Assembly (NCBI GenBank): GCA_005776585.1
Contig: SXOX01000149.1
Location: 22,211-86,210 of the forward strand
Source: Pseudomonadota bacterium
Lineage (GTDB): Bacteria > Myxococcota_A > UBA9042 > GCA-2863065
DNA length: 64,000 nucleotides
Reading direction: 5' to 3'
Position numbers and translations under genes: made by a program. This document shows, one piece after another, positions 6,336 to 54,676 of the stretch. Each line of letters begins with the position of its first letter. Position 1 is the stretch's first letter. The notes beneath the pieces were generated by a model that saw nothing but the letters and a program-made list of their open reading frames with translations, made no database searches and had not been told where the DNA came from.

Positions 6336-6352
6336 GGCAACGGAGGAGACGC

Positions 6353-9769: not shown

Positions 9770-9779
9770 GCCGACCTAC

Positions 9780-19907: not shown

Positions 19908-20133
19908 TGTGTCCGCTGAGCTTCTCGATTTTTTCTGGCTTCGACTTGCAGATCCAACGCGACCTGAATGACGAAACATAGGCCTACTCTACTTGATCCA
20001 ACTTGCTGACCGTCGCGTAGCGCCTTGCCGGGCCGCGCGATCGGACGCCAGCACTCTCCCGCGGCGGCTGTCAGCAACGCGCATCCTCACGCGTCCTTGT
20101 GCCATGACCGTGCCCACGCACAAGGAGCGTTCC

Positions 20134-28115: not shown

Positions 28116-28250
28116 CGCGGCCTCCCTCGCCTTTTTGGCCGGCCGATGGTGCGCGAATGAGTGGCCAAGCGCAACTGCCCGTGTCAGCTTCCCGGTCCTT
28201 TGCGCGTCCTCGTTGCAGCAGCGCCACGTCGGCGGCTGAAAAACGTCCTG

Positions 28251-29813
28251 ATGGAGAACGCCATGAAGCACCTCGCCCTCACCCTCGGCACCTCGCTCGC
28301 GCTCGCCGCTTGTGCAGATACCGACCCCACCCTCGGTACCTCCGAGCCACCGTCCACGTTGGCGACCCAGGCGGGGGCGCTGAACGTCCTTCACAACGTG
28401 CCGTACCTCAAGCAGACGGTCTACACCGGCATCGGGGAGTCGGCGTGCGCGCCGACCTCGCTCGCGATGCTCATTCGCCACTACTACCCGGAGTCGTTCT
28501 ACGACGTCCGCGAAGCCTTCCACGGGGGCACACAGGGCACGAAGTACGACGGCCCCGCTATCGGATACCGCAACCTGTCGTTCGCGAGCGGCGCTACGGG
28601 TTCCGACCCTGGGACCGCCGCCATCCCGAGCGGATTCACCGGCTACTACACCTACATGTACGTCGGTGGAGGCAAGTTCAGCGGCGCTGCTTCCTGGGAC
28701 GGAGTCCTCGACTCACTCCGGAAGATGTGGGGCTTCACTGTGACGTCCTACGAAGGCTCGACGGCCATCGACAGCGTCTATGCCGCGATTGCAGACGGCC
28801 CGCTCCTCGCGTCGGTCTACGCTCACGGCAACACGAAGTGGGGTCACTACCTCGTCATCGTTGGTATCAACGACAAGGGCACGACGAGCCGCAATGATGA
28901 CACCATCTACCTGAACGATCCCTACGACAACCAGTGGTTCAGTGGCGACGTGAGCGGCAACAAGCGTCCTGTGCCCTACGCTGAGTTCTTCTTCGGCCCC
29001 GGCAAGAAGGGCGGCTCCGCGTGGTTCCGTCGTGCTGCGAAGCTCGTCCCCGCGGACGGCGTCGAGGCGCGGAAGCACTCCGTCTTGGTCGACTCTGGTC
29101 ACCTCGCCGTTTCCGGCAACGCGAGCGTCCACAAGATGGAGCTCATCGGGCTCTACGACCAGGTCGGCAGCCAATACGCTTGGCGCCAGTACGTCGTCGG
29201 TACGAGCTTCGGTGACTGGATGTATCCGACAGCCGGCGGAAAGACGGCGCGGTGGACACCCAAGCTCAGCGCTTCGGGCAACTACCGCGTCACCACCGTC
29301 GTCCGTGGCGACGCAACCAGCGGCAAGGTCACGTATGCCGTGAAGTCCAACACCGGCGCGACTCTTGCGACGAAGACGATCGATCAGTACCGGTCACCGG
29401 CTGCGTGGATCTCGATTGACATCGCCAGCAGTGTTGCGCTTCAAAACGGGGCGACCATCGAGGCGACCTCCATTCCCGTGAACTCGAACGTCGACGCCAT
29501 CAAGCTCACCTGGATCGGTGCGTCCTCCTCCGGCGGCGGGTCGTCCGGCGGCTGCACGTACGCGTGTTCGACGTACAACTACTCGCCGGGGCTGTGCAAC
29601 GGCGGTTGGCAGTGCGACTGCTCGGGCCAGTGCATCACGAAGACCGGTTGCACCGCGAGCACGACATGCGGTGGAGCGGCAACGAGCTGCCAGTTCCCGT
29701 GCGCCAACTACGGGTACTCGGCCGGCTATTGCCAGGGCGGATGGCAGTGCGACTGCGCAGGGCAGTGCATCACAAAGACCGGCTGCGCTTCCAGCCTGAG
29801 CTGCGGCGGCTGA
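28251..29813 (+). CDS. C39-like cysteine peptidase lipoprotein with golvesin-like region and C-terminal tandem Cys-rich modules
   Basis: MENAMKHLALTLGTSLALAACADTD (lipobox LAAC). VPYLKQTVYTGIGESACAPTSLAMLIRHYYPES (catalytic Cys) and KWGHYLVIVGINDKG (catalytic His) fit Peptidase_C39_2. Gly/Ser linker, then two CxxxC-x9-C-x5-CxC modules. Confidence 0.85.
   Translation: MENAMKHLALTLGTSLALAACADTDPTLGTSEPPSTLATQAGALNVLHNVPYLKQTVYTGIGESACAPTSLAMLIRHYYPESFYDVREAFHGGTQGTKYDGPAIGYRNLSFASGATGSDPGTAAIPSGFTGYYTYMYVGGGKFSGAASWDGVLDSLRKMWGFTVTSYEGSTAIDSVYAAIADGPLLASVYAHGNTKWGHYLVIVGINDKGTTSRNDDTIYLNDPYDNQWFSGDVSGNKRPVPYAEFFFGPGKKGGSAWFRRAAKLVPADGVEARKHSVLVDSGHLAVSGNASVHKMELIGLYDQVGSQYAWRQYVVGTSFGDWMYPTAGGKTARWTPKLSASGNYRVTTVVRGDATSGKVTYAVKSNTGATLATKTIDQYRSPAAWISIDIASSVALQNGATIEATSIPVNSNVDAIKLTWIGASSSGGGSSGGCTYACSTYNYSPGLCNGGWQCDCSGQCITKTGCTASTTCGGAATSCQFPCANYGYSAGYCQGGWQCDCAGQCITKTGCASSLSCGG
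29553..29813 (+). repeat. Two tandem 45-aa Cys-rich modules (135-bp period) with defensin-like cysteine spacing
   Basis: CTYACSTYNYSPGLCNGGWQCDCSGQCITKTGCTASTTCGG and CQFPCANYGYSAGYCQGGWQCDCAGQCITKTGCASSLSCGG; first Cys codons at 29553 and 29688. Confidence 0.85.
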
Positions 29814-37410: not shown

Positions 37411-38761
37411 CTGTGGTGGTCAGGGCGGTCGAGTTCTCTGTTTTCTCGACAGGCCCGATCTTCTGTGTTTGCGCTTCGTTCCGGGTAGTTGGCCTGTGCC
37501 ACCACCCGGAAGGACTCGATGGCGATCAAGGGCACGGCCGGCGCTGCTCGGCGCAAGGCGCAGAAGAAGGACGTGGAGGCCATCGAGGCCTTTCTGGCGA
37601 TGCTGGGTCTGCTGCCGGACTCGCGAAGAGCACAAGGGCGGCGCTATCCACTGCCGACGGTGGTGATGGTCGCACTGCTTGCGATGATCTGCGGCTGTGA
37701 CGACGCTTCCTCGATGGAGGCGTGGGGCGAGCGGCACGAGAAGTGGCTCGCGACGTTTCTCGACATGCCGCATGGGCCTCCGTCGCAAGATGTGTTCCTC
37801 AGCGTTTTCGCGGCTTTGCCACCCGAGCCGTTTGGCAAGTTCTTCGTCATGTGGACTGACTTCCTGCGCGGACGGCTCGCCCTCGCGGGCAAGCACGTGG
37901 CGGTCGACGGCAAGACGAGCAGGCGAACCCACCACCGCAGCAGGGAGCAGCCGGCCGTGCACACGGTGAGCGCGTGGCTGAGCGACGCCGGACTCGTCCT
38001 CGGTCAGCGCAAAACGGAGACAAAGTCGAACGAGATCACGGCGATCCCGGAGCTTCTCGCCGTGCTCGACCTGCGCGGCGCAACCGTGACCATCGACGCG
38101 ATGGGATGCCAAACGGACATCGCGGCCGCGATCATCGAGCGCGGTGGGCACTACGTGCTGGCCGTGAAGGACAATCAGCCGACGCTGGCCGAGGAGATGG
38201 TCGCGACCTTTGCCGACGCCGCAGACGTGACGCCGCGCGCGCTGGACCAGCCACCGCCAACGCCGGTCGAGGTGCACGAAACGCTCGAAAAAGGCCACGG
38301 CCGCCTCGAAAAGCGCACCGTGACAGTCGCGCGCCGTCTCGACTGGATCACCACCAAGGCACGCTGGCCCAAGCTCGCATACGTCGCTCGCGTCGAAAGT
38401 GAACGCACCGATTTGGCCACTGGCAACATGAGCGTCGAGCGCCGCTACTTCATCGGCAGCGATCCCAGAGCCAGCGTGACCCGCGTCGGAGAGCTCATTC
38501 GCGCGCACTGGGGCATCGAGAATGGCCTGCACTGGGTCCTCGACATGGCCTTCAACGAGGACCAAGCCCGGCAGCGAGCAGGCTACTGCGGCGCGAACTT
38601 CGCGACGCTCCGACACATGGCGCTCAACCTTATCAAGCGAACGCCCAACCGCCGGTTGGGCGTCAAGAACACACGGCTCCTCGCTGGATGGGATCTCAAT
38701 GAACTCGTTCGGATTGTGGTCATGGCGGAGATTTAGAACTCGACAGCCCTGCTGTGGTGGT
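37411..38761 (+). mobile_element. ISAs1-family insertion sequence (element 37421-38751) flanked by 10-bp target duplications
   Basis: Inverted repeats CAGGGCGGTCGAGTTCT (37421-37437) and revcomp CAGGGCTGTCGAGTTCT (38735-38751), 16/17 identical. Direct repeat CTGTGGTGGT at 37411-37420 and 38752-38761. Full transposase inside. Confidence 0.95.
37519..38736 (+). CDS. ISAs1-family DDE transposase
   Basis: KHVAVDGKTSRRTHH, ATVTIDAMGCQTDIAAAIIERGGHYVLAVKDNQP and RAHWGIENGLHWVLDMAFNEDQAR are characteristic ISAs1/H-repeat DDE motifs. ATG 37519 preceded by an aagga ribosome-binding-like site. Confidence 0.95.
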   Translation: MAIKGTAGAARRKAQKKDVEAIEAFLAMLGLLPDSRRAQGRRYPLPTVVMVALLAMICGCDDASSMEAWGERHEKWLATFLDMPHGPPSQDVFLSVFAALPPEPFGKFFVMWTDFLRGRLALAGKHVAVDGKTSRRTHHRSREQPAVHTVSAWLSDAGLVLGQRKTETKSNEITAIPELLAVLDLRGATVTIDAMGCQTDIAAAIIERGGHYVLAVKDNQPTLAEEMVATFADAADVTPRALDQPPPTPVEVHETLEKGHGRLEKRTVTVARRLDWITTKARWPKLAYVARVESERTDLATGNMSVERRYFIGSDPRASVTRVGELIRAHWGIENGLHWVLDMAFNEDQARQRAGYCGANFATLRHMALNLIKRTPNRRLGVKNTRLLAGWDLNELVRIVVMAEI

Positions 38762-39212: not shown

Positions 39213-39980
39213 ATGAACGCACGCCTCGCCTTCACCCGCGGTATCTCATCCTCGTTCCAGGACGCCTCGGTCCTAGAACCGTCGGGGGTCGCCATCAACG
39301 TCGACCTCGCTCGATCGCAGCATGCCGCCTACGTCACTGCACTCAGGCGCGCGGGCGTCGAGGTCCATGAACTACCTCCGATTGACGACTTCCCTGACGG
39401 GTGTTTTGTGGAGGACTGCGCCATCGTCCACGAAGGCCAGGCCCTGATCACACTTCCGGGAACGCCCTCCCGCGTCGGCGAGGAGCAGAGCATTGCCGAT
39501 GCGTTGGGCACGCTCGTTCGCGTCGAGCGGACGCGCCCTCCAGCGACTATCGAAGGTGGAGACTGCCTCCGCATCGGCCGCCGCTTGTTCGTCGGACGCT
39601 CAACCCGCACGAACGAGGCCGGCGTCGCGCGCGTCCGCGCGGTCTTCGGCGCGCGTGGTTACTCGGTGGCGGAGGTACCGGTGAACCGCTACCTGCATCT
39701 CAAGTGCATCTGCTCCCCCTTGGACGACCAACGCATCCTGCTCGCTGAGGGCACGATCCCACCGACCTACTTCGACGGCTGCGAGTGCCTCATGGTGCCT
39801 CATGAGGAGGCGCTCGGTGCGAACGTCGTCAGCGTGAATGGCTGGGCAATCGTTGCCGAGGGCTACCCGGAGACGTTGAGGGCGGTGGAACGCGCCGGCC
39901 TTCGCCCGATTCCCCTGAACATTTCGGAGATCGCGCGAGCGGACGGGTCGTTGACCTGCCTTTCGCTTCTGATGGCGTAA
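39213..39980 (+). CDS. ddaH: Dimethylargininase (DDAH)/amidinotransferase-superfamily hydrolase
   Basis: RSISSSFQDAS-like N-terminus (RGISSSFQDASVLEPSG), PDGCFVEDCAIVHEGQALIT, TIEGGDCLRIG, NRYLHLKCICSPLDD and C-terminal ARADGSLTCLSLLM (catalytic Cys) match the DDAH pattern. Confidence 0.85.
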   Translation: MNARLAFTRGISSSFQDASVLEPSGVAINVDLARSQHAAYVTALRRAGVEVHELPPIDDFPDGCFVEDCAIVHEGQALITLPGTPSRVGEEQSIADALGTLVRVERTRPPATIEGGDCLRIGRRLFVGRSTRTNEAGVARVRAVFGARGYSVAEVPVNRYLHLKCICSPLDDQRILLAEGTIPPTYFDGCECLMVPHEEALGANVVSVNGWAIVAEGYPETLRAVERAGLRPIPLNISEIARADGSLTCLSLLMA

Positions 39981-42900
39981 TGGCCGCCTCAGATCCCCCT
40001 CCAGCCTTCCATGAGCTACCCTACCCGATCGCTTGGCCCTTGCTCCGTGCTGACGATCCCGGCGAGCCGGCACTTACGCGTCTGTATTGCCTGCTGGATG
40101 CCGTTCGTGGACTGGTGAAGCTTCTGACGCTGTGTGCTGTGAGCGAATACACGACGCTGCGCCCCAAGGATGCGGCGGTCGATCGCCGCCTGGCGGACTT
40201 TGTCGACGCGCGCCTATCGTTGGGCCACTGGATCGACCTGCTGCGTGAGCTGGCACGCTACTTTGCCAAGCGTACGGAGATCCGACTGTTTGTAGCCGAA
40301 CTCCCGGCGGCGTTCCTCAGGGCGCGGGGAGGATTCTCCCTGGCGTGGCATGCACTGGAAGACATGGTCTCGTTTCGCAATCGCAGCCTCGCGCATGGCG
40401 CGCGAACCATGGACGAGGGCGAGGCGAGCGGGGTCCTGGCCGAGCGTCGCGCGGCATTCGACGAGATTCTGCGCGCCGTTGACTGGATCGCCCGGTATCA
40501 CCTCGTGATTCCAGAAGAGACGGAATTGGTCGGCGGTCGTCTCCATGTCACCCACGTCGTCTCGTGTGACGGTCCACGCGTGGCTGTCGAGCCCAAACCC
40601 TGTGCCTCGTTTCCCTTGCGCGAGGAGGTCCGCCGGGGCGAGGCCTTGCTCCTCTGCCGCCGCGATCTTCCGGCGGAGCACCTCGTGTTGTTCCCACTGT
40701 GGCTCCCATACTTCCACGCCTCCCATGCTGCATACGACCTGTACGCATACGAGGCCGCCCACCGAGCTCCGCATGATCGGCTCTCGGTTGCCCGCCTCCT
40801 GTACCACCCAACGCGGGTCCGCAGCGAGATTGAGATCACCGCAGGTTCCCCGCTCGAGCCGGTGCTGTCGTCCTTCAGCGATCGCTTTCGCCCATTCATT
40901 GGGGAAGTGTTGGGGGCTGTGGGCGCCCGCTCGCCTCGGGACCACTATTTTCCGACCCAGAGGGAGCTGATCCGGCGCAACGCCGAGCGATTCGTCGGTC
41001 GTGAGGACGTACTCGAGCGAGTTGGAAACGTCGCAGGTGCTGCCCCACCCTGCGTCCTGCTCCTTGGGCCGCCGGGGCAGGGCAAGACGTCGTGCATGGC
41101 ACGCATGGTCGAAGAGCACGGCTGGAGCCATCACTTCTTCGCCCGGGACGGCGGAAGGAACCGGCGGGAACTTGCGCTTGGCTCGCTGCTCCAGCAACTC
41201 ATCGGGGCGCGAGGTCTCAACATGGGTGTGCCCGAAGGGCACGCCGATCGCGAGAAGGCGTTCGCCGATGCTCTGGTCGCCGGAGCCGGCGGCCGTCCGC
41301 TCGTCTTCGTGCTCGACGCGCTCGACGAGAGCGACCTCGAGAACGCCGAAGATCTTGACGGCCTCGTGCCGGCCTCGGTCCCAATCGGTGTCACGTTCCT
41401 CGTGACCTCACGGCCGGGACCGCTCGCAGCGGCAATAGAGAACCGCGCGGGTACGGTCGTCCTCACATTGGAGCCGTTCAGCTTGAGCGAAGCGTCCGCA
41501 CTTGCGGCGCGGATGGGTGTGGTCCTCGTCGACCAGCAGCTCCGCAACGTGTGGAACGTCACCAGCGGGAACCCGCTGTTCTTGAAGATGCAGCTCGAGG
41601 AGCTGCAGGAGACCCGTGGACGCGCGAGCGAGCACTTGAAGCTCCGAATTGAGGACTGTTTCGCCGCCCGGTTGGAGCGGGCAATGGAGCAGTTTGGTGA
41701 TGAGCCGGTCCTCGCGGTAATCGGGTTACTCGCGACCGCACAGACCGGCCTGTCGACCAGCGACATCGCCCAGTTCGTACCGGCAGTCCCGTTGTTCACG
41801 ATACGGCGCATCCTTACTCGGCTCAGCGAGTTCCTGTTGGATGACGGCGGCCACTTCCGGTTCTTCCACAAGCGATTCGAGGAGTTTGTCCGGCGCGAAC
41901 TCCTGGACGCTTCCAGTGTCGAGCGCTGGCATCGCCACATCATCGCTCACCATAGCCCATGGCAGCAGAAACGGACCCGCTACGGTTTTCGCCACCTGGC
42001 CGCTCACCACGCCATACTTGGCGATTCGCAAGCCCTCATGTCATTGCTCGAACCCGCCTTTTGGCAAGTGCGAGCGGCCAGCGACGCCGCCGGTCTCGAC
42101 ATCTACGACGACGCGAGGCGGTGGCTTGCTACCGGCCTTCCGGTCGACGAGCTGCTGGCGCGGCTGCGCCCCCTAATCGCCGCTGGAGAGGCCTCGATGG
42201 CTCGGCGTGCCCTGCGGTGCCTCGCGGATCTTTCTCGTCACATTCCTCCACAACGTCTTCTGGCCGAGATTTCCGCGTTGCCGGAGTCGACTGATTTCTG
42301 GATCGGATCTGAAATTCGGAAGACGAGTGCACGACTGAAACCGGCGGAGACATCCGTTGCCAGCGGAGAACGCATCCGGATTGGCGTCTTGAACTACATC
42401 GGACACCTTCCCCTGTTCCTGGCTCGGGACCTCGGCCTTTTCGAACGGGCGGGCCTGGCGGTGGATCTGCTGTTCTTCGACGGAAACGAAGATCGCATCC
42501 GTGCGCTCGCCGAACGAGAAGTGGACCTGCTTGCGAGTACCATCGACGAGGTGTTCCTTGCCTCCGAAGCGGGAGTGCCTCTGCGCGTCGTCCTGAGGAT
42601 GACCCAGGGGTGTGACGACGGTCAAGTTGTGGACGGGCTTCTTTCCAAGTCCCGCATTGCGGACCTGCGTGAGCTCGAGGGCAAGAGACTCGCGATCGAG
42701 AAGGACAGCCCCAGCCTGTTCATCCTCCACCACCTGCTGCAGAGGCACCACATCGAGGCATCCAAGATCGAGCTGGTCCGTTTCCGGTCGTCGGACGACG
42801 CGGGCGCCGCCCTGCGGGAGGCTGTGATCGATGCGGCCATGTTGTGGGAGCCCTGGTTGCACCGCGCACAACAGGAGACTGGCTGCTACCTTGTGCCTTT

Positions 42901-43279
42901 GCCCGACGTCGACGTCGTCGAGGACGTGCTTGCCGTAAGGTCGGATCGGGCCGTTGACCTTGCGGACGCACTCCGTCGCCTCCGCGACGTCTGGTTCGAC
43001 GTGGTGGAGTGCCTTGGGGAACATGGCGACCAGTTGCTTTTGCTGGCGCGGCAGCGATTCGGGATCGCCGCACAGGATTGGCTGGACCTTGCCCACCGAG
43101 TCTCCTATGCAGACCGCGCTTCCAACCACATGTTCTTCACGGATCCGGATGCCTGGCACGCTCAGGCGACGTACACCCAGGATGTGCTGTTCAAAGCGGG
43201 ACTTCTGTCGGTGCGTAGCAGTCCCGAAGGCATGGTGTTGTGGGACGTGGCGGCGCCTGTCTTCCGCGGAGTCATCTGA
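39980..43279 (+). CDS. HEPN-like N-terminus + STAND/AAA NTPase + C-terminal SsuA/NMT1-like substrate-binding domain
   Basis: ALEDMVSFRNRSLAHG (R-x5-H), FVGREDVLERV...CVLLLGPPGQGKTSCMARM (Walker A), PLVFVLDALDES (Walker B), C-terminal IRIGVLNYIGHLPLFLARDLGLFERAGLAVDLLFFDG...VIDAAMLWEPWLHRA (SsuA/NMT1/THI5-like). ATG overlaps the ddaH stop (TAATG). Confidence 0.88.
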   Translation: MAASDPPPAFHELPYPIAWPLLRADDPGEPALTRLYCLLDAVRGLVKLLTLCAVSEYTTLRPKDAAVDRRLADFVDARLSLGHWIDLLRELARYFAKRTEIRLFVAELPAAFLRARGGFSLAWHALEDMVSFRNRSLAHGARTMDEGEASGVLAERRAAFDEILRAVDWIARYHLVIPEETELVGGRLHVTHVVSCDGPRVAVEPKPCASFPLREEVRRGEALLLCRRDLPAEHLVLFPLWLPYFHASHAAYDLYAYEAAHRAPHDRLSVARLLYHPTRVRSEIEITAGSPLEPVLSSFSDRFRPFIGEVLGAVGARSPRDHYFPTQRELIRRNAERFVGREDVLERVGNVAGAAPPCVLLLGPPGQGKTSCMARMVEEHGWSHHFFARDGGRNRRELALGSLLQQLIGARGLNMGVPEGHADREKAFADALVAGAGGRPLVFVLDALDESDLENAEDLDGLVPASVPIGVTFLVTSRPGPLAAAIENRAGTVVLTLEPFSLSEASALAARMGVVLVDQQLRNVWNVTSGNPLFLKMQLEELQETRGRASEHLKLRIEDCFAARLERAMEQFGDEPVLAVIGLLATAQTGLSTSDIAQFVPAVPLFTIRRILTRLSEFLLDDGGHFRFFHKRFEEFVRRELLDASSVERWHRHIIAHHSPWQQKRTRYGFRHLAAHHAILGDSQALMSLLEPAFWQVRAASDAAGLDIYDDARRWLATGLPVDELLARLRPLIAAGEASMARRALRCLADLSRHIPPQRLLAEISALPESTDFWIGSEIRKTSARLKPAETSVASGERIRIGVLNYIGHLPLFLARDLGLFERAGLAVDLLFFDGNEDRIRALAEREVDLLASTIDEVFLASEAGVPLRVVLRMTQGCDDGQVVDGLLSKSRIADLRELEGKRLAIEKDSPSLFILHHLLQRHHIEASKIELVRFRSSDDAGAALREAVIDAAMLWEPWLHRAQQETGCYLVPLPDVDVVEDVLAVRSDRAVDLADALRRLRDVWFDVVECLGEHGDQLLLLARQRFGIAAQDWLDLAHRVSYADRASNHMFFTDPDAWHAQATYTQDVLFKAGLLSVRSSPEGMVLWDVAAPVFRGVI

Positions 43280-43435: not shown

Positions 43436-44935
43436 TCAGAGGGGCGCTAGCAATTCCAACAGCCGCTCGCACACACCTCGGGCCTTGCTGATATCGGAGT
43501 CCGCCAGAAGTTCGAGCCGGTTGTGGGCGGCCGGCGTCCGTACCCTGGCCAGTTGTCCGAAGTCCCTTCGCCACTGCCCCGCGTCACCACCGAGGAGCGG
43601 ATCGCCGAGGTTGGTCCAGTCAGCGTTCAGCAGTTCGAAGAGGTCGAGGGGGTAGGTGTAGTCGAGGATCCGCGCCTGCGAGGCGCCACCTAGAAATGGG
43701 GCCTCACGGTTCCGCCTAGCCTCGGCCTCGACGAGCATCGCGGTCAGTCCGGGGCGCCTCCTCAGGACTTGCTGGCGCCAGTCCGCTTGCCAAAGGTGTT
43801 CGAGGCGCTCCTGGATGGCGGTGCGCAGCATTCGTTCAGTCTGGGCCCACAGCCCCCAGAACGGCACTTGATGTCCCAACGCATTCAGGAAGTCGACGAA
43901 GGCAGGGCAGATGGACTCGACGACTCCCGAAGTCCCAGTCCTCCATGCACTCACGATGACGCCGTGCTCCTCGAGTTCGGAGATGTTCTGGGGCTTCAGA
44001 TCAAATGTTGGACCGCAGAACACTTGCAGGGCTTTCGACAGATCACCGCTGTCCTCGAGGATCTCGGCAACCTCCTGGAACAGCCGCACCGCATCGATGC
44101 GCAGCCGCCGCTCAAGCTCCTCCGTGTCGACGTCCCCCGCGGCACGCATCGCCCAGAGTGTGTAGGCGGCACGGTCGAGGAGGAACGGGTGCCGACCGCA
44201 GTAGCGCTGGATCACCGCTGCGCAGTGGCCGTCCAACTCGAGTCCCTCCGACCTCGCGCGGTTGCAGTGGAGCGTGTGCTCAACCTCGCTGAACACGCTG
44301 ACTGGCACGACGTCAAGCACATTCGCCCAGTAGCCTGTGGAGAGTCCGGCTGCGTGCGCGATCTCGGGGAGCCGACGTTTGGACGCGAGCAGGAGCCCTA
44401 CGCCGTACGCCGTGCTACCCGCAAGGGTTCTCACGAGGTGGAGGAAGTCTCCCTGGCCTTCGAACAGAAACCGGGCGGAGTCAAACTCGTCCAGGAGGCA
44501 GATCGCTCGGACCCGGCGCGCATGGCACTCCTCGAAGAACTGTTGCACTGCCCTCTTCCAAGCGAGGTCGTCCTCGAGTTGCCCAAGCTCGACGCTCAGC
44601 CGCAATGCCTCGGCCGAGGCTCCGCCGCGTTGAGCCCAGGTCCTCACGACGTCGAGACAGATTTGCCGAAATAGGTCGCGTGGCGAACGGAAAATCCCGC
44701 AGTTGATCTCGACGGGAATGCACGCGACCTCGCCGAGCGAACGGGGAACCTCGGCGAGGACGCGTCGGGCGATGCTCGTCTTCCCCGTGCGAGGCAACCC
44801 GACCAGGGCGGAGGAGGCGCAGAACTCCTCCGAGCCATACAGGCGGTCCCGGAGCCGCTGGCACTCCGGGGCCCGGCCGATGAACCGCGACTCGCTGACC
44901 GGTTGCCCAACATACGCATATGGATTTGGTCTCAT
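43436..44935 (-). CDS. AAA/STAND-like P-loop ATPase with C-terminal HEPN-like RxxxxH motif
   Basis: ESRFIGRAPECQRL...SALVGLPRTGKTSIARRVL (Walker A), RAICLLDEFDSARF (Walker B). C-terminus WRRDFGQLARVRTPAAHNRLELLADSDISKARGVCERLLELL. Confidence 0.85.
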   Translation of the reverse strand: MRPNPYAYVGQPVSESRFIGRAPECQRLRDRLYGSEEFCASSALVGLPRTGKTSIARRVLAEVPRSLGEVACIPVEINCGIFRSPRDLFRQICLDVVRTWAQRGGASAEALRLSVELGQLEDDLAWKRAVQQFFEECHARRVRAICLLDEFDSARFLFEGQGDFLHLVRTLAGSTAYGVGLLLASKRRLPEIAHAAGLSTGYWANVLDVVPVSVFSEVEHTLHCNRARSEGLELDGHCAAVIQRYCGRHPFLLDRAAYTLWAMRAAGDVDTEELERRLRIDAVRLFQEVAEILEDSGDLSKALQVFCGPTFDLKPQNISELEEHGVIVSAWRTGTSGVVESICPAFVDFLNALGHQVPFWGLWAQTERMLRTAIQERLEHLWQADWRQQVLRRRPGLTAMLVEAEARRNREAPFLGGASQARILDYTYPLDLFELLNADWTNLGDPLLGGDAGQWRRDFGQLARVRTPAAHNRLELLADSDISKARGVCERLLELLAPL

Positions 44936-44939
44936 TGCG

Positions 44940-47900
44940 TCACCCGTTCACCAGTAGCCACTGTCGGAACAGTTCGTTGCAATGCAGGTACCGATCACCG
45001 TCCAGGCGGATCACCTCCCGACGAATCAGATCATCGAGGACCTCGCGGTACCGGCCTCCCGTCCTGACAACGTCTTCAAGGCGGGCGCCACCCTCCGCAG
45101 CCCCGCGGGCAACTAGCAAGCACACCGCCCGCGCCTCGTCGATGTCGATGCCCGTATCCTCCACTCCGTCTCCCCCCAGGAACAGGTGCTCGACATGGTG
45201 CCAGGATAACCGAGTGCGGTCGAGGATCAAGTGCTGGATCGCCGCTTCGACGTCGGCCGTAGTCGCCACCAGCGCCCTCGTCGCGTTCATGTTGTCGATC
45301 ACGCGATCGAGGAGCAGCAACGTGTAGTACGGGCTTCCCCCACAGAGGCGAGCCACCGACTCGATCGCGGCGTCGGTAAGTCTTCCGTCGGGGATCATGC
45401 CACGTATCATGTCTGTGGCGTCCCGGTCCGGCAGGCTGGGTACCCGAATGAGCTGGAAACCCGCGAACGCCGGGGCGAACTCGGCGCTCATGCGGGGAAG
45501 CGTGTCCTTCCCAACGAGGAGGACGCTAATCCCCTCTCGCCGTTCGAAGAACTCTACCCAGGGCTCGAAACAGTCGCTGGAGCAGACCTCTCGGCTGACG
45601 CGTGCGTATAGCTCCGAGAACTCGTCGACGATCAGCACGGTGGATTTGAGCGGTTCGGTCGCCAGGCCAGCCTCGGAGGCGGGCGGGGCCGGTAGCTGCG
45701 GAGGAAACAGGCTCGAAATCCACCGCGCCATCCCGACCTTCGTAAGGCCGTTCGGCAGTGTATGAAAGGTCGCTCGAACGACCTGGTGTCCCCGGTTCCT
45801 GAGCTCCAACGCGACACGTGAGGCGATCGACGACTTTCCTGACCGCTCTTGTCCGTGGAGGAGCACTGCGCCGGAGGGTGAGGAGAGAACACCGAGGAGG
45901 TTGGCCACCAGAGGGTCGCGACCGATCAGCTCGCTGGTCGCCATCTCGGGTCCAAGCCGCATCGTGCACGGATTCGGTCGGATGGCCGGGAATGGCTCCT
46001 TGGTGCACACCCGCAGCACGTGGCGTTGGGCCGACCCGATGCGGCGGCGGCCCAGCCGATCCAGGCATCGAATGTGGAGGCTCAGTGCGATGGCCCCGTC
46101 AGCCGACTTGGCGCGTAGTGGCACTGAGAACTCCACCGCCCCGCCGCTCCGGAGCCTTTCCGCGATGCCGTGAATGATCTCGCCTCGCCCCGAATCGTCG
46201 GAGTCCGGGTGTCCGACCAGGAGCTGAACCGAACCCGCGGAGCATGTGCTCGTGTTGATCGCCCGGAGCTGCAAGCGGATCTCCTCGGTGAGCGGGTCGA
46301 CCCAGTATGTGTCCGCGCAGGGCTCGATCCGTAGTGTCGGCGATGCTGCCTCCAACCGGTTCGCCACGGCCTGCTCGATGGACAGACGCAACCTGATCAG
46401 CGGCTCGCGCGCCAGGTAGGACAAGTACGTCGGTCGCGCGACGATATCTCGGACCAGCTGATCAATGACGTTCACGAGGTCAAGGCTTTCGGTCTCGATC
46501 TGATCGATGTCTGCGGTGTTGCCGTGTAGCCCCACCGCGCGAACAGCGACAGTGGTCGCGAGCATGAGGCGCTCCCGATCGAGTGGCGAGGATCGCACCT
46601 TTGCGGCCACGTCGGCGAGGACGTCGCTCGCCGCCCCACGGGCCCCCCACTGGAGCGCTGTCTCAAGCTGTTCGGCCAGCTCATTCCGGATGCGGCCGTC
46701 CTGGTCACCGACCGCCTGCCAGAGGTCGTACAGTTTGGCTCCGGGCGCCGAGCGGGGGTGTAGATACTCGCGGAGCGCCGTTCCCACGTCGTCCTGACCG
46801 GAGAGCGACTCAGCCACCGGCTCCGCGATCCGGGTGCGGAGCGCAAGATCGCGCAGGGCCTCGAAGACGGGCACCCAACTGCCGTGCTCGAGCGCACAGC
46901 GCTCCGCTGTGAGTGCGGCGGCCGCCCGCCAACCCCTCGGGCGGTCGTGGAGCACGTTGTCAAGGCGGACTCGGCCGCCCGGTCCGAGCACGTAGAGCGC
47001 GAACAACCGGACCGCGTAGCTCGTTGGTGGCGCAAGGGCGATGGCCTCTGCGAGCAGGGCCTGCCGGACCTCCGGCGGATGCCCCGCTACTTCGGCAAAG
47101 GTCGCGAGTGCGTCGAAGTGGCTCGACAGCCACACGCGCACCATCAGGTCGTCGGCGAGCTGGAAGCGCCTCACAGCGGACGCAGCGGAAAGGAAGAGAC
47201 GGGCACGGTCGGCACTATAGGGGTGGAGCGGCAGTGCGGCGGCCTCGCTTGCTACGCGCCGTGCGTCGTCGAGTGTTACGGTTCCCGCCCCGACCGCCTC
47301 TGGGTCGAATCCGACGAGAGGAGCCGACTCGAGGTGGGCCGACGCAATGACTCCGAACGATACGCCGTGGTCCGGGTCCGGGTCCCAATCGAAGACGTCG
47401 TCCTCCCCTCCCGCGCCAGGTCGGACCCCGATTCGTTGTATGAGTCTGCGAGTCTGCGAATCGTCGGGGTTCTTTTCGAGTGCCTCGAAAAGAGCTTGGC
47501 GGGCCTGTGTTAGCTGGCCAAGCCTCGTAAGCGAGTAGGCCTCGCGCCGCGCAAGCGACGCTCGCTCCGACTCTGAGGCTTCCCGCTTCAGAAGGTCGAG
47601 TTCCTTGAGTGCCTCTTGGTGGCGGTGGAGGTGGGCGAGTAGCGTCGCAAAGTGGTTGCGGACGGCTCTTGCCTGGGGTGCCCGCCGGAGGAAGACGCGA
47701 AGTTCCTTCAGAGCCTCTTGACCGCGGCCACGCTGGTGCAGGAGCGAAGCCAAGTCGTTGACCGCTGCCTCGGGTCTGTGGCCCTTCTCGACGGCTGTGC
47801 GGTACAGCGTGAGCGCACCCTCTGGGTCGAAGGAGGCCATCTCCTTGGCACGGACGACGAGGGAGCCCCCGGTTTGCGAAACCGCATGTTGGACCAGAGC

Positions 47901-48953
47901 AGAGCTCGAGAGCCGAACGTGCACCGCGCGCTCGTAGGGGTGCCCGGGCGAAGGACGTCGCTCGAAGCGCACACCGATGCCCCGCCACGCGTGGGTCTGC
48001 AGCCGCCGGCGCAGCTCTTCATCTTCGACGTCATCGAAGCGGAAGAATAGGGTCGTCATGTCGCTGGACTGGATAAAGCCGAACTGCTGGACACCGAAGG
48101 ACGCGATGTATCCTGGCGCGACCGACACTACATCCGCGATCGCCGTGTCGAGCAGATCCTGGATCCGACTGTCCTCCGCCTGGAGCTCAGGCCGCGCGGC
48201 GAGTGGAAGCGACTGGACCGCCAGCTTCAGCCCCCCTAGCTGGAGGGCCGAGGGCTGGTTGGCGAGCACGCGGTGTGCCATCGCCTCAAGGACGTCACTC
48301 CGGCCGATGTGGTGGAAGACGAGCCGGAGACTACGGCCGAGGACCTCGACGCTGGCGTCGGCTAGCGCAGGGATGGCCAGGACGTCCGCGAGGCCGGAAT
48401 AGGCTTCGAAGCTGATTGTCAGTCTCAAGAAGACCCGCCACTCGGGCTGGAGCTGACGTGGCGGCACGCAAAGGAACGAGCGCCGCAGCGCCACCCAAAC
48501 TCGCTCCGGGGCCTCTAGCTGCTCGCCCAGGCGCGCCAGCAACATCCAGGTCGGGCCGTCGTCGCGCCGCGCTGCCACAACCGCAAGTGCGTCGTAGCCC
48601 CCCACGAGGTCGCCAGACCGAAGCCGGGTGGCGGCGGCGCCGAGTTGGGGATCGTCGGACGCCGGGAAGTCGTCCGGGGTAAGCGGCGGAAGGCGCGCCC
48701 GCGCGAGCTCTGCCAGTTCCCGAGACACATCTTCCGGTAAGGGAATGTGCCCCGGCTCGGTGCTGTGCGCCTGAATGCCCGCGACCGCAGCAAGTTCCTT
48801 GATCTCGCGGACGGCAAGGATGCGCATTGTGTCCGCGTTCGGTCTCACCAGGACGTGGGATGGTGTAACGTTGCCGAGGACGCCGGAGGCGGTCACGCCG
48901 GACCGCAGCTGGACGACGACCTCCCTGCCGACAAGCGATGACCAGTCAATCAC
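44940..48953 (-). CDS. LSm-like N-terminal domain + TPR region + C-terminal AAA/STAND-like ATPase
   Basis: GTG 48953 (VIDWSSLVGREVVVQLRSGVTASGVLGNVTPSHVLVRPNADTMRILAVREIKEL). TPR-like repeats. AVLLHGQERSGKSSIASRVA (Walker A), STVLIVDEFSELYARV (Walker B). Start overlaps the upstream stop (GTGA). Confidence 0.8.
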   Translation of the reverse strand: MIDWSSLVGREVVVQLRSGVTASGVLGNVTPSHVLVRPNADTMRILAVREIKELAAVAGIQAHSTEPGHIPLPEDVSRELAELARARLPPLTPDDFPASDDPQLGAAATRLRSGDLVGGYDALAVVAARRDDGPTWMLLARLGEQLEAPERVWVALRRSFLCVPPRQLQPEWRVFLRLTISFEAYSGLADVLAIPALADASVEVLGRSLRLVFHHIGRSDVLEAMAHRVLANQPSALQLGGLKLAVQSLPLAARPELQAEDSRIQDLLDTAIADVVSVAPGYIASFGVQQFGFIQSSDMTTLFFRFDDVEDEELRRRLQTHAWRGIGVRFERRPSPGHPYERAVHVRLSSSALVQHAVSQTGGSLVVRAKEMASFDPEGALTLYRTAVEKGHRPEAAVNDLASLLHQRGRGQEALKELRVFLRRAPQARAVRNHFATLLAHLHRHQEALKELDLLKREASESERASLARREAYSLTRLGQLTQARQALFEALEKNPDDSQTRRLIQRIGVRPGAGGEDDVFDWDPDPDHGVSFGVIASAHLESAPLVGFDPEAVGAGTVTLDDARRVASEAAALPLHPYSADRARLFLSAASAVRRFQLADDLMVRVWLSSHFDALATFAEVAGHPPEVRQALLAEAIALAPPTSYAVRLFALYVLGPGGRVRLDNVLHDRPRGWRAAAALTAERCALEHGSWVPVFEALRDLALRTRIAEPVAESLSGQDDVGTALREYLHPRSAPGAKLYDLWQAVGDQDGRIRNELAEQLETALQWGARGAASDVLADVAAKVRSSPLDRERLMLATTVAVRAVGLHGNTADIDQIETESLDLVNVIDQLVRDIVARPTYLSYLAREPLIRLRLSIEQAVANRLEAASPTLRIEPCADTYWVDPLTEEIRLQLRAINTSTCSAGSVQLLVGHPDSDDSGRGEIIHGIAERLRSGGAVEFSVPLRAKSADGAIALSLHIRCLDRLGRRRIGSAQRHVLRVCTKEPFPAIRPNPCTMRLGPEMATSELIGRDPLVANLLGVLSSPSGAVLLHGQERSGKSSIASRVALELRNRGHQVVRATFHTLPNGLTKVGMARWISSLFPPQLPAPPASEAGLATEPLKSTVLIVDEFSELYARVSREVCSSDCFEPWVEFFERREGISVLLVGKDTLPRMSAEFAPAFAGFQLIRVPSLPDRDATDMIRGMIPDGRLTDAAIESVARLCGGSPYYTLLLLDRVIDNMNATRALVATTADVEAAIQHLILDRTRLSWHHVEHLFLGGDGVEDTGIDIDEARAVCLLVARGAAEGGARLEDVVRTGGRYREVLDDLIRREVIRLDGDRYLHCNELFRQWLLVNG

Positions 48954-51900
48954 AGGCAGACCGACACCGACAGAGCACGTGCCACGGTGTGCTCCGGCGT
49001 CCAACACTCCTCGCCACCCTCGATTCCTCGGGACGCAATGTGAAGCTGTTCGGCCCAGTCGAGCACTTCCTCGATGGTTTCACCAGACTGGGGCTCGAGC
49101 ACGGTCATCACGTCGGAGGCGGGAACGGCCACACATCCGCCTGCCGCCCCAGCGTCGTAGGACAGGGCGGATAGCGCCCTGACTACTTCCAGCCGTCGAC
49201 CTTCGAGCCCGACTGCCGACAGGAATGCCGAGGCCAGCTCCGGTGTAGCCATGGCAGTGTCGAGTGCCCCGAGTGCCTGTTGCCACCTCTGCGGCGCGCT
49301 GGCGGACAGCCGGTGCAACGCGGCCAGAAGTACTGTCCAGTAGCCCGTGCAGTGGCGGATTGCCGTCCGCGCCTCGAGACTCGCAGGAAGGGCACCGGTT
49401 TCCTCTAACCAATGGCGAACGTCGTCGTCGGACCAGCGCTCAATGCGCTCGATCCGGATGTCCGGCCAACTTGGGGGAGGACGCGCGAACTCTGCACGGT
49501 AATGCCAGGCTTTCCCCGGTCCGGCGAGAAAGATCACATGGACGGCATCCTGGGAGTAGAGCGCCGTCGCCCGCCCCTGGGCGGACCGGAGCCAGGATTC
49601 GTCCCAGGCCACGTCGTCCCCGACGAGCAGCAGCGTGGTCCCGGTCCGACGCTCGCTCCTCAGCGAATCGAATGCGGTGTCCAGCGCCGGGAGCAGCGGC
49701 CCCTCGATCCGGCGCACGGCCTGGCGTGAGAACGACGAGGCGAGCGCGACCTCAATCTGATCGAGACCGAGCGCGAGTGAGCCGATTAGAACGTGCACTC
49801 GCTTGCCACCTTTGCTGTTGTCGCGCAGGTCGTATTCCTGCCGCTGCAGCAGCGGACTGAACAAGGCGTGCCCATCCGGCCCCTCGAACTTCTCCCTAGC
49901 AGCGGCGGCCCCGAGCGGTTCCTCCGCATCCCGCATGCGGGACAGGACCTCCAGGATTTCCCCTTCGGGACCGAGCAGGAGGAGCACGTTCTGATTTCGG
50001 AGCGTGAAGTTCGTGCCGACCGCCCGGAGTACACCAAGCTGGACCATCTCCTCGAGGTACAATCGGACGGACGACTCGGTCATGTCCTCGAAGCCCATAG
50101 GCCAGTAGACTTGGCCATACCGCAATGTCCACTGCACAGAGAAGCCAACTTTGTCGGAGGCCGGCACCTCGTCCATTAGGATCGCGAAGCCCATCGCGTA
50201 CGCGATGACCTTGTATCTCAGGTCGAGATCCAGTGTGAGGCCGAATCGATAGCGAATGGCCTCCCGCAGGTCCTTCTCACGGTACGCCCGTTCGAGATCG
50301 TCTGAGCGAATGACGGTCGGCACCGGGGTCTCAGGCGTCTCCCTTTCTGCAATCAGGTGCTTGAGCAGCAGCTCGCAATAGAGCTGGATCAGGCTCGGGT
50401 AGTAGTTGGTCTGCGACAGTATGCGCGTTACGAGATCGGGGGACTCGAACTGGAACCCCATCGCGCGGAATGGGACATCCACGAGCTCCCGGGCCGCCTT
50501 CAGCTCCTCCCCTTGCATCATCGGGCCAATGCGCCTCGGGCTAAGCTGCCCCAGCGGATGGTTGCCGCGAAGCGATGTACGCAGGACGTTGTGTAGTCCT
50601 GCCAGCACGACGCGAAAGCGGTCCTTGGTGCTCACAGACAGCTCGCGCAGTATGCCCATCATGGCGTAGCCGTCCGGCTGTCCCGGGCGACGGATGGCGT
50701 CGTACGCCAGGAAGTTGTCGGCCTCGTCGAGGAGGAGCAGTAGAACCCGGCTCGAGTCCTCGAGCAGCCAACTGCGGAGGTGGCCGATAAGGACGCCAGG
50801 TCCTCCCTTCCTTGGCTGAAAGTGGTTCGGAACGAGCGGGATGTGGGTTCGGCTAGCCAGCTCCTTGATGCGTTCGCCGAGATGGATCCAGAAGCCTTCG
50901 GTGAGCTGCTTGATATCGAGGTAAAGCGCGACCTTCTGATCAGCGGGTTTGTGGAAGCTGTGCGCGACGTTGTGCAAGAGCACCGTTTTGCCAAGTTGGC
51001 GCCCTCCGTAAACAAAGCTGACCTCCCCCCGCTCGATCGCCTTCCGCTCCGCAAACCGTCCGTAGAACATCTCCGGTGGGCAAGTGCCGGCGCGGGCACT
51101 GTAGGGCTCGACGAATGTGAACGGGAGGGTGGCGGTGAACAGGGAGCGATGCGGGTCACCGGGCGACAGGCACACGTACGCCAACGCTATGTCGTCGACG
51201 ACCAACACCGGGAGGCGCTTGCGAACGCACTCCGTGGCCATCTCACTCCGCTTCTGTCGGTTCATCCTACCAAACCAAAAAACAATTCGGGCGGGGTCGT
51301 CAGGATGTGGGACGCCGAAGTCGGCGAGCACCCGAGCCGCGTGAGGCCGATCCCAGTAGCAGTGCACGCTGTACCCTCCCCTCGCCGCGGCCGATCCGAA
51401 GGCTGGTACCGGGCAGCGCTCCGGATCGGGCTCTTGACCTGACTGAAACTGTATTGTGAGGGGTCTGCCGGGGATCACTCTCAGCGAAGTAATGCGGGCC
51501 CACCCAAGTTTCTGGAGAATGTCACGCGCCATGTCCTCGGAGACTGTGCGGTCCCGCCGCAGCTTCGTGTGTCTCCAAGCCCGGAGTGCGTCCTGGGCGC
51601 CCTGGATCCGCTTCCCGTCCAGCTCTGTGAGCCGTAGCCCGCCCAACGGCTGGCGCTGCTCGATGTTCCTGAGGAACGACTGCCAGCGCGGGTCCTCGGG
51701 CGACGCAGCGTCCAGGAGTCCGAGTCGCTGATCGAGGTCGTCAAGTGCGTCCACGAATTCCCAGGGTCCGCCCCCAGGTGCGGACTCCGCCGACAGCTCG
51801 CCATCTGCCTGGAGCTGGCCGATGTAGTCGTTCGCGGTCACGATGTCTTCATTCGCCACCGACTCCTCGACCCGCCGCCGATCATCGGCGGAGACCCGTG

Positions 51901-54676
51901 ACCCGAACGCTGCCAATTCTTGGAGGATCTGGGCGCGTTTGTCGTCGATCTGCCTGCGCAGCTCGTCGCGCTGCGCCGCCAGCCCCTCCCGTTCGCGGAC
52001 GAAGTCCTCGACATGCTCGCTCCGCTCCTCGGTACGCTCGACCTGCGCGATCAACGCCGCGCGGGTGCTCTCGGGGACGGCGCCTCGGCCGAAGGCCCGC
52101 TCGATATCGAGCCTGAACGATGCAAGCGCCTTGCGGATCGCGGTGCGCTCCCGGGCGAGCCCCTCTGCGCGCCGCAGTTCGAGTGTTTCAACGCCCGGTG
52201 GTCCCTCAGCGGTCGCGAGTTCGATGAGCAGTCTGGAGCCGACGTGGTCCCCATGCTCGAGCCGGACGTCGAAGGCGGCAGCAGCATCTGGGGTCGAGAT
52301 TGCACCGCGAAGCAGCTTTGGCAGCAGGGCGGTTGCGCCCTCGGTCGGACGCCACCATGCGTCCAGCTGGGCCCCCGAGCACAGTGCGTCTCTCATTAGC
52401 ACGTGCACGAGCGCCGGCTCCGCTAGAGGGAGCGACAATGCAGGGTCGACTAGCTCCTCGATCCGCTGCAAAGACTGACAGAGGATGGTGGCCCCGATTT
52501 TCCAGGCTGCGTTGTCGGGGACGTCGGTATGCCCTTCGAGCGTGTTCCGAAGCGAGCCGCATCGCGCCGCCAGCGTCCGCGCCACATCCGTGTGGTGGGC
52601 GACGTCGCCGGCCGCGGCGACACGTTCCTCGCTGTCGAGGAGGTCGATCCATTGCTGCGCCAGGCCGACGGCAGGCTGCAAGCGCTCGAAGAGCCTGTTC
52701 GGCTCGCCGCCCTGAATGTCCCGGCCCCCTCCGCGGCGGTTCACGGCCCGATCGACCCGATGGATGCGATCGTAGATGAGCCGGCGATTCGACACCTCCT
52801 CGATGAGCGCCTCGACATCGGATTTCCGGCTCCGGTCACCCACCCGGATCGGGTCTAGAAGGCGGTGTAGGACTCCCTCTGGTCCTCGCTCGATCCAACG
52901 CCTCCACACCTCGCTCGACGGCGCGAAACGGAATACCCTCGGCGTGTCCAGCCACTCCCCTACCTGGGTACGGAGCCGACCTAGCCGGGCGTCTCGCGAG
53001 TCGGGGCCCTGGAGATCCCGGAGGAGGAGGAGGTCGAGGGGGACACCATGATCGGCAACTGCTAGAGCGATCTCGGCGACCGCGTGGAAGTCTGGGAGCT
53101 CGCGCGCGAGCAGCGCGTCGCAGCTGCGAAGCAGGTTTGCGGCCCCTCGATCGGCTGCAACCACACCGGCCGGAATCAGCGCCGCCCCGAGGGCCAGGGC
53201 CATCGCCATGCCGCCATCATCATTGTTTTCCAGCTGAGCGACGAATTCGGACGTCTCGGGGGTCCAGTGCATCTCGACCAACCGCTTTGCCAGGTCGCCC
53301 CGCGGCCTGCTGAGCTGCTGCGCTGCCGCCAGCACCCCGAGGAGCCATGACGGTAAGCACATGCCCTGTGGCGTGGACGACACTTCCAGACTGCTGGCGA
53401 CGCAGTACCCCAGCCCGTGCCTCCCCTCTGTGGCGAGGGCCCAGATAAGTAGTGCAAGCTGGCGCCCGTCGGGAGGGCCGTTCGCCGCCAAGCATCGCTT
53501 GGCAAGGTCCGCCGCGGCGGGGAGAGGGGGTGCTAGATCCGCCACGGTAAGCAGAACGGTGGGCCGAGAGCAGCTGTCCGCGGTCTCGGTACGCCAAGGC
53601 CAGGAGACCGTTTCGGGGGTCGCCTCGTCGCGTCGTGCCGGTCGCGATGCCTCCCCGATGGCAGGATTCCGCACCATCGGCTGCAAGCGCACGGTGCCGC
53701 GCATCGCCTCGGCCTGCGCCGAGAACACGTGGACCAGCCGCCAGAACGCACTCACCTCGGCAGGTTCCGCTATCGGTGCGGAACCGCGCATGTGCTCAAT
53801 CGAGTCTGCTGCCGGCTCCGCACCGGGGCCGTCATCGCCGACTGCCGATGCTGCGAACGGGTCCTCGGGGAGTTCTGGGACCGGCTCCACCGAGGGAGGG
53901 GAATTGGGCAGCGGCTCCTCCGAAGTGATCTGTCTGGGACTGGCCGCCAGCTCGGCAACTGGCTGCCATCGCGCCGCAGACACATGTGGGGCGGGCTCGT
54001 GCCGGTTGGAAGCCGGCTCAGGTTTGAGGGGCGTCCGCGCGCCGGGGGCGGGCTCCGCGTTCGTCTCGGGCTCCGCGATTGACTCAGGAGGCTGTCCGAA
54101 ATCGCCAGTGACGATCGAGATATCCCCAAGCAGGATCCCGACGAGCGTGGGATAGCCGAAGGCGGTCTTGACCCTCTCGAGCACCTCATCGCTGTGCACG
54201 CCGGAGACTGCCACGAGGACCGCACCCAGAGCGTTCTCGAGGGCGGCAAGCTCGCCTGAATCGGGGATCTCCGCCGCTTCGCAGATCCGCCTCGTGCGCT
54301 CTAGGGCTGCCTGGACAGGACGGATTGCGAGGCTAGGCCCCTGCAGTTTCCCGGCCCCATCAATCAGTTCATGGAGGCGGTTCGACCCATCCGCAGAGAG
54401 ACCTTCGAGGATCAGGTCCAGTGCGTCCGCGGAGCACGCGGAGAGATCGACCTGGATGCCTTTGTGCGCTGCGAACGAGACGACCTGTTCGTGGAGCGTG
54501 GCGACGACGGAGTCCGCTTCTTGTAGGCGGCGCTGAAGGTCGCTCCCGGGCGGCGACCCATCTTCGACGGCCCTGTCCGCGGCGTCGCGAAGGGCCGGGG
54601 CGAGGTCACGAACCAGCGACCTTGCCTCCGACACCCGTCTCCTGAGTTCATCAATCGTCGTGAGGTTGAACTGCAT
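48950..54676 (-). CDS. Giant 1908-aa STAND-like ATPase with a second, P-loop-less NTPase-like C-terminal region
   Basis: FYGRFAERKAIERGEVSFVYGGRQLGKTVLLHNVA (Walker A), RVLLLLLDEADNFLAYD (Walker B). C-terminal GTTLLLVGDDVAWDESWLR...HVIFLAGPGKAW. Confidence 0.85.
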   Translation of the reverse strand: MQFNLTTIDELRRRVSEARSLVRDLAPALRDAADRAVEDGSPPGSDLQRRLQEADSVVATLHEQVVSFAAHKGIQVDLSACSADALDLILEGLSADGSNRLHELIDGAGKLQGPSLAIRPVQAALERTRRICEAAEIPDSGELAALENALGAVLVAVSGVHSDEVLERVKTAFGYPTLVGILLGDISIVTGDFGQPPESIAEPETNAEPAPGARTPLKPEPASNRHEPAPHVSAARWQPVAELAASPRQITSEEPLPNSPPSVEPVPELPEDPFAASAVGDDGPGAEPAADSIEHMRGSAPIAEPAEVSAFWRLVHVFSAQAEAMRGTVRLQPMVRNPAIGEASRPARRDEATPETVSWPWRTETADSCSRPTVLLTVADLAPPLPAAADLAKRCLAANGPPDGRQLALLIWALATEGRHGLGYCVASSLEVSSTPQGMCLPSWLLGVLAAAQQLSRPRGDLAKRLVEMHWTPETSEFVAQLENNDDGGMAMALALGAALIPAGVVAADRGAANLLRSCDALLARELPDFHAVAEIALAVADHGVPLDLLLLRDLQGPDSRDARLGRLRTQVGEWLDTPRVFRFAPSSEVWRRWIERGPEGVLHRLLDPIRVGDRSRKSDVEALIEEVSNRRLIYDRIHRVDRAVNRRGGGRDIQGGEPNRLFERLQPAVGLAQQWIDLLDSEERVAAAGDVAHHTDVARTLAARCGSLRNTLEGHTDVPDNAAWKIGATILCQSLQRIEELVDPALSLPLAEPALVHVLMRDALCSGAQLDAWWRPTEGATALLPKLLRGAISTPDAAAAFDVRLEHGDHVGSRLLIELATAEGPPGVETLELRRAEGLARERTAIRKALASFRLDIERAFGRGAVPESTRAALIAQVERTEERSEHVEDFVREREGLAAQRDELRRQIDDKRAQILQELAAFGSRVSADDRRRVEESVANEDIVTANDYIGQLQADGELSAESAPGGGPWEFVDALDDLDQRLGLLDAASPEDPRWQSFLRNIEQRQPLGGLRLTELDGKRIQGAQDALRAWRHTKLRRDRTVSEDMARDILQKLGWARITSLRVIPGRPLTIQFQSGQEPDPERCPVPAFGSAAARGGYSVHCYWDRPHAARVLADFGVPHPDDPARIVFWFGRMNRQKRSEMATECVRKRLPVLVVDDIALAYVCLSPGDPHRSLFTATLPFTFVEPYSARAGTCPPEMFYGRFAERKAIERGEVSFVYGGRQLGKTVLLHNVAHSFHKPADQKVALYLDIKQLTEGFWIHLGERIKELASRTHIPLVPNHFQPRKGGPGVLIGHLRSWLLEDSSRVLLLLLDEADNFLAYDAIRRPGQPDGYAMMGILRELSVSTKDRFRVVLAGLHNVLRTSLRGNHPLGQLSPRRIGPMMQGEELKAARELVDVPFRAMGFQFESPDLVTRILSQTNYYPSLIQLYCELLLKHLIAERETPETPVPTVIRSDDLERAYREKDLREAIRYRFGLTLDLDLRYKVIAYAMGFAILMDEVPASDKVGFSVQWTLRYGQVYWPMGFEDMTESSVRLYLEEMVQLGVLRAVGTNFTLRNQNVLLLLGPEGEILEVLSRMRDAEEPLGAAAAREKFEGPDGHALFSPLLQRQEYDLRDNSKGGKRVHVLIGSLALGLDQIEVALASSFSRQAVRRIEGPLLPALDTAFDSLRSERRTGTTLLLVGDDVAWDESWLRSAQGRATALYSQDAVHVIFLAGPGKAWHYRAEFARPPPSWPDIRIERIERWSDDDVRHWLEETGALPASLEARTAIRHCTGYWTVLLAALHRLSASAPQRWQQALGALDTAMATPELASAFLSAVGLEGRRLEVVRALSALSYDAGAAGGCVAVPASDVMTVLEPQSGETIEEVLDWAEQLHIASRGIEGGEECWTPEHTVARALSVSVCL

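Follow-up and report, generated by a model that had tools for sequence, protein, structure and literature searches.

In the window analysed here, a 64,000-nucleotide stretch of contig SXOX01000149.1 (assembly GCA_005776585.1), a single uninterrupted open reading frame (ORF; 39980-43279, +) runs from ATG to TGA and encodes a protein of 1099 amino acids (aa). It joins a HEPN-like module, a STAND NTPase, a putative winged-helix/helical arm and an NMT1/SsuA-type domain of the type-II periplasmic-binding (PBP-II) fold. The domain order, the NTPase motifs, the PBP-II fold, the pocket residues, the arginine and histidine of the N-terminal module and the lack of an export signal were all computed. We lean slightly towards reading the protein as a cytosolic STAND (NLR-like) switch with HEPN-like output, gated by a ligand that would bind a recruited NMT1/SsuA-type domain in the C-terminal sensor position. 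Such a fusion suggests an immune-like switch under intracellular small-molecule control. An earlier note on this DNA had described the three-part protein, which the ORF call, Pfam, the sequence motifs and structure prediction now confirm. The parts are of known kinds, and the combination of STAND and NMT1 appears to be new among the genomes, plasmids, viral contigs and literature searched.

What bacterial NLR-like switches sense is mostly unknown, and sensors of the repeat type give little to guess it by. A transport-type binding domain as the sensor would allow the direct screening of metabolite libraries, and therefore a single protein would open the ligand of a STAND switch, its gating and its output to testing. 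If the reading is true, the principle of CmpC/NrtC, in which a cytosolic binding-protein domain gates an ATPase, would be extended from transport to NLR-like signalling.

The NTPase and the binding domain behind it

The NTPase core (residues 337-511; 40988..41512, +) is matched by two Pfam models above their gathering scores, namely AAA_16 at 337-463 (E 3.8e-8, 34.4 bits vs a cut-off of 32.6) and NACHT at 359-511 (E 1.9e-6, 28.2 bits vs 26.7). All four STAND motifs are intact: the Walker A GPPGQGKT (363-370; 41066..41089, +), the Walker B FVLDALDES of the NACHT-like hhhDxhDE form (443-451; 41306..41332, +), the sensor-1-like VTSRP (475-479; 41402..41416, +) and the GxP motif within GNPLF (530-534; 41567..41581, +). 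The first two are the motifs quoted in the earlier note, and both are present as quoted. On the level of sequence, the Pfam matches and the motif set confirm that the NTPase belongs to the STAND/NACHT (NACHT/AP-ATPase) group, in keeping with the same note. Between the NTPase and the sensor position lie residues 560-784 (41657..42331, +), which have no Pfam match; their pattern (...FHKRFEEFV...YGFRHLAAH...) may represent a winged-helix-like part followed by a helical stretch.

The C-terminal domain (residues 797-1099; 42368..43276, +) is identified as NMT1/SsuA-type by Pfam, NCBIfam, alignment, AlphaFold, Foldseek and pocket residues. Pfam NMT1 (PF09084) at 809-989 (E 5.5e-17) and NMT1_2 (PF13379) at 797-990 (E 9.9e-8) both score above the gathering cut-off, and NCBIfam SsuA_fam matches at 799-1030 (E 3.3e-22, below its curated cut-off). 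When residues 785-1099 are aligned with 29 relatives from the phylum, the length of a substrate-binding protein (SBP) is covered entirely. The AlphaFold model of the C-terminal 315 aa (mean pLDDT 88.5, pTM 0.87) has the two lobes of a PBP-II fold, and Foldseek against the PDB matches it with TauA (E 4.5e-19, TMq 0.76), with the regulatory domain at the C-terminus of CmpC (9uak; E 2.6e-13, TMq 0.75), and further with SsuA, Thi5, PqqT, DszB and a 'biosynthetic pathway' enzyme. Likewise, the sequence profile of the domain (A5) matches residues 273-512 of NrtC (8wm7_C, E 2.8e-7). The SsuA/TauA/NMT1 pattern first noticed in the sequence is thus borne out by Pfam, AlphaFold and Foldseek, the latter two predicting the type-II fold. 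With this fold and the STAND/NACHT placement of the NTPase, neither of the two findings that the earlier note named as refuting it was made. The absence of an export signal, also claimed earlier, agrees with a hydrophobicity scan in which no signal peptide or transmembrane segment is apparent; the longest hydrophobic window (Kyte-Doolittle (KD) 1.59) lies inside helix 31-60.

The pocket follows that of the transport proteins. All ten signature residues are kept (G808, P811, D856, D879, D885, S912, W956, E957, P958 and D982), as defined by an alignment with 85 SBP relatives from genome_contigs (mostly 295-410 aa, longest 568), of which 75 to 85 agree at each position. Among the ligand contacts of TauA (PMC6906117), mapped by hand on HMMER alignments, E106, W176 and D205 are retained as D885, W956 and D982. 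The SsuA/TauA SBPs share the entire fold and the pocket signature with this protein, but they are exported as stand-alone proteins that bind small nutrients outside the cell, and genes for an ABC permease and an ATPase adjoin theirs (for example in L073). In contrast, no transporter gene adjoins that of the present protein, which is not exported; the neighbours here are a DDAH-type gene and NTPases. A search of its own genome with the NMT1 domain gave one further match, weak and partial; hence the domain is not a copy of a resident transporter SBP.

Small-molecule-sensing STANDs exist. For example, MalT senses maltotriose through a TPR-like sensor, and its output is DNA binding at the C-terminus. 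It is a STAND switch under small-molecule control, as is proposed for this protein, in which, however, a PBP-II domain takes the sensor position and an N-terminal HEPN-like module that of the output. The defence STANDs of bacteria (NLR, Avs, bNACHT) and the conflict-system STANDs of Kaur and Aravind share the order of effector, STAND and C-terminal sensor, and HEPN effectors accompany (inactive) STANDs (PMC8195603). However, their sensors are TPR, WD40 or similar repeats, or nucleic-acid-binding modules, and no NMT1 sensor was found in the literature checked on them. The closest mechanistic precedent is CmpC and NrtC of the cyanobacterial bicarbonate and nitrate ABC transporters, where a homologous NMT1-type domain is likewise cytosolic and C-terminal to a P-loop ATPase; theirs is the nucleotide-binding domain (NBD) of an ABC transporter and not a STAND, there is no HEPN-like module, and transport is what is regulated. 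Cytosolic nitrate is the signal for the CmpC regulatory domain (CRD), which keeps the NBDs blocked while nitrate is low and lets go of them once nitrate has bound (PMC13249358). Similarly, truncation of the NrtC domain abolishes the ammonium regulation of nitrate uptake (PMC6603209).

A second STAND-NMT1 protein was found in none of 379 genomes sampled from the larger phylum (the remainder being covered by pattern-based scans), nor in the class, another class, genome_contigs (as a whole protein) or viral contigs, and the matches of a plasmid search span separate domains only. Scanning genome_contigs with the NMT1 domain gave 392 relatives, and none of the 80 loci retained from these encodes an N-module or NTPase match. 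Candidate fusions in long open frames (G364, G378) turned out to be SBPs or SBP-OmpA proteins, and one on a Nostoc plasmid a separate 353-aa SBP adjoining a histidine kinase. No STAND with an NMT1 sensor was found in the open-licence papers searched. The earlier statement that no such protein is known to be described therefore held in the genomes and literature searched, with the qualifications that small-molecule-sensing STANDs exist in MalT and cytosolic NMT1-type regulators of ATPases in CmpC/NrtC.

Other uses of the NMT1-type domain were observed. The phylum has recurrent proteins of ~530-640 aa in which an OmpA domain comes after it (L004, L007, L011, L026, L030, L069), apparently substrate-binding domains tethered to peptidoglycan. 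On the plasmid of Nostoc sp. HK-01 (L155, 5839-8642), a stand-alone NMT1-type gene lies directly upstream of a membrane histidine kinase gene with a 4-base overlap, a possible further use of the domain as a sensor.

The N-terminal HEPN-like module

The N-terminal module (N-module) covers ~290 aa, and its AlphaFold model (pLDDT 82.6, pTM 0.84) has a helical, HEPN-like domain (residues 1-172; 39980..40495, +; helices at 8-172, family alignments A2/A4) followed by a beta-rich domain (residues 173-290; 40496..40849, +). The 'RN..H' motif of the earlier note is R133-N-R-S-L-A-H139, an Rx5H motif (40376..40396, +) located where helix 121-137 ends; helix 31-60 contains positions 43-47. The published HEPN signature is Rx4-6H at a helix end with a polar residue after the arginine, and with Ex3[KR] in the preceding helix as a common, not defining, feature (PMC3710099). 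The N-module has this Rx4-6H spacing, the polar N134 after R133 and the helix-end position. Across 62 N-modules with ~20% identity, R133 is found in 57, N134 in 38 and H139 in 44. Among the polar residues of the helical domain, R133 and H139 are conserved best; an E/D stands at position 43 in 50 of the modules and an R/K at position 47 in 51. The proposal of an N-terminal HEPN-like effector thus stands as far as R133/H139 and the 43/47 pair of the family match the signature, and does not extend to a HEPN fold. The N-module may be called HEPN-like by motif, its membership of the HEPN fold being unproven.

Residues 1-312 match proteins of other genomes at 25-30% identity, and a ten-sequence profile places the module in 84 of the 379 genomes, with E-values that are partly circular, the motif statistics being the independent part. 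No Pfam model matched it in the proteins scanned, and Foldseek, tried for a known fold, gave only weak ribosomal-protein matches. The N-module is hence a recurrent uncatalogued domain, which kinases, FHA, cNMP and STAND proteins share within one phylum and to which the present protein draws attention. Its partners are Ser/Thr kinases, the commonest with 17 of the 31 scanned, as well as FHA, cNMP-binding and FGE-sulfatase domains, TPRs, and STAND or related NTPases. For example, it precedes other NTPase/STAND domains in L050, L055, L127, L137, L140, L142 and L147.

The family (L050-L063, L082-L151; profile A2/A4) has the consensus P-x-P-I-A ... G-x-W ... RN-x3/4-H ... L-x-L-x-P. One member in L147 (2217-7961, -) is a 1914-aa protein, one chain that combines a kinase, the N-module, nSTAND1 and a WD40 propeller. 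Two further N-module proteins are encoded in the window: one (21387-23039, +) is without the motif histidine and its gene overlaps the 3' end of an NYN-RNase gene (19993-21411), and the other (25827-28523, -) continues into TPRs.

Proposed gating and its rivals

We infer ligand binding, autoinhibition, oligomerisation, RNase activity and a biological role for the protein as follows. In the ADP-bound monomer, the NMT1 domain would dock on the NTPase/winged-helix arm and so keep the switch off. A small molecule would enter the cleft and the two lobes would close upon it, after which the closed domain would undock, like the regulatory domain of CmpC with nitrate bound. Exchange of ADP for ATP would then permit oligomerisation via the NTPase, and the clustered N-terminal HEPN-like domains would form Rx5H active sites, cut RNA and stop growth; if the N-module is non-catalytic, the output may instead be the recruitment of a partner. 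That the protein is in full a metabolite-gated NLR-like RNase, in which a captured transport-type domain serves as cytosolic chemical sensor and HEPN-mediated cleavage of RNA is set off by a specific small molecule in place of a nucleic acid or phage protein, is proposed only tentatively. The trigger could be a guanidino or amine compound with a link to the DDAH-type hydrolase encoded next to it.

The gene of this hydrolase, of the DDAH-type dimethylargininase family, lies immediately upstream (39213..39980, +; Pfam ADI/DDAH, NCBIfam dimethylargininase at 7.5e-52, below the curated cut-off). One base is shared between its stop codon and the start codon of the STAND gene (TAATG), so the two genes are probably translationally coupled. 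Because of the coupled gene and the acidic pocket, an amine/guanidino metabolite is the first ligand candidate, unlikely as it is to be the true one. For L002, the best SBP homologue, the match to a urea-type SBP model stays under the cut-off of that model. However, the operons of close Firmicutes SBPs carry aminotransferase, Fe-alcohol or hydroxyacid dehydrogenase genes, and no NMT1 SBP tied to guanidine was found in the literature searched; both weigh against a guanidine/urea ligand, which is kept as a lead only. The DDAH-type gene is the sole DDAH found in this genome, and 42 of the 379 genomes have one. At 15 other DDAH loci of the phylum (~1.5 kb each side), neither an N-module nor an NMT1 neighbour was present, and the NTPase region was matched at one of them (L167), weakly and in part (E 5e-4).

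Several observations weigh against the ligand-gated switch. The structure models cover separate parts, so the interdomain docking is conjectural. The instance is a lone one, and it thus comes without the conservation of the fusion that would speak most strongly for a working machine. The acidic position 43 of the N-module family is an arginine here (R43/K47), and thus Ex3[KR] is not present in this protein; further, the N-module has no PDB structure match at E<=0.001 in Foldseek and no PDB profile match. In the pocket, the sulfonate-binding positions G61, G79 and T132 of TauA are replaced by N836, T854 and P911, and therefore the ligand is not readily inferred. The cleft is thus conserved, though not as a sulfonate site.

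These losses, together with DxSxGxD of the phylum SBPs, which reads DDGQVVD here, would also fit a domain that senses no small molecule and is a binding surface or scaffold, for example for a phage or host protein, as with the C-terminal arms of Avs. STAND sensors do commonly recognise proteins. Yet the fold is complete and confidently predicted, and all the cleft-signature residues remain, although in a pure scaffold drift would not have spared them; this reading is considered rather unlikely. The notion that the domain acts as an enzyme and not as a sensor (Thi5-, MqnA/D- or DszB-like, with the fold in common) draws on the Thi5, DszB and 'biosynthetic pathway' matches in Foldseek, and is judged very improbable, since TauA/SsuA are the best matches, residue conservation tracks the transport SBPs, and the three cysteines of the domain (878, 969, 1011) are scattered and hence form no Thi5-like cluster.

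A different doubt bears on the output alone and leaves room for ligand gating. The N-module could be no RNase but a general adaptor/output domain that joins kinases, FHA, cNMP and STAND proteins in one signalling network, with the protein a metabolic signalling switch and not a defence effector. Its fusion mainly to kinases, the several members devoid of the histidine, the absence of a HEPN structure match and the lack of any PADLOC match, by which no described defence protein is recognised, all speak for this, while the conservation of R133 and H139 and the fit of their spacing and helix-end position to a HEPN active site speak against it, which leaves it a credible minority view. Finally, the source is a single metagenome-assembled genome (MAG) in 334 contigs without a second instance, and the STAND and SBP frames could have been wrongly joined in assembly. 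Nevertheless, GC and GC3 are uniform over the junction, with no stop or frameshift, the genome has no other clear NMT1-type SBP to be joined, and the junction falls at the usual sensor position of STANDs. GC3 is 0.71-0.77 in every part of the ORF and similar in neighbouring genes, so there is no sign of a chimeric contig, and an artefact is regarded as extremely improbable.

Other genes of the locus

No Rfam model matched in the locus. An IS transposase gene (37489-38736) lies just upstream of the DDAH/STAND pair. Downstream, on the opposite strand, are NTPase genes (43436-44935 and 44940-49007, -). In all, the region 43436-54676 (-) holds three large genes beside the STAND gene, which encode a 499-aa AAA_22/AAA_16 NTPase, a 1355-aa protein with TPR and AAA_22, and a 1908-aa ORF. 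Further away (3102-17065, +), a tandem set encodes a vWA/PKD protein, a Tubulin_2-like GTPase (6311-9769) and a 743-aa protein, followed by a protein of 1685 aa that matches nSTAND5 weakly.

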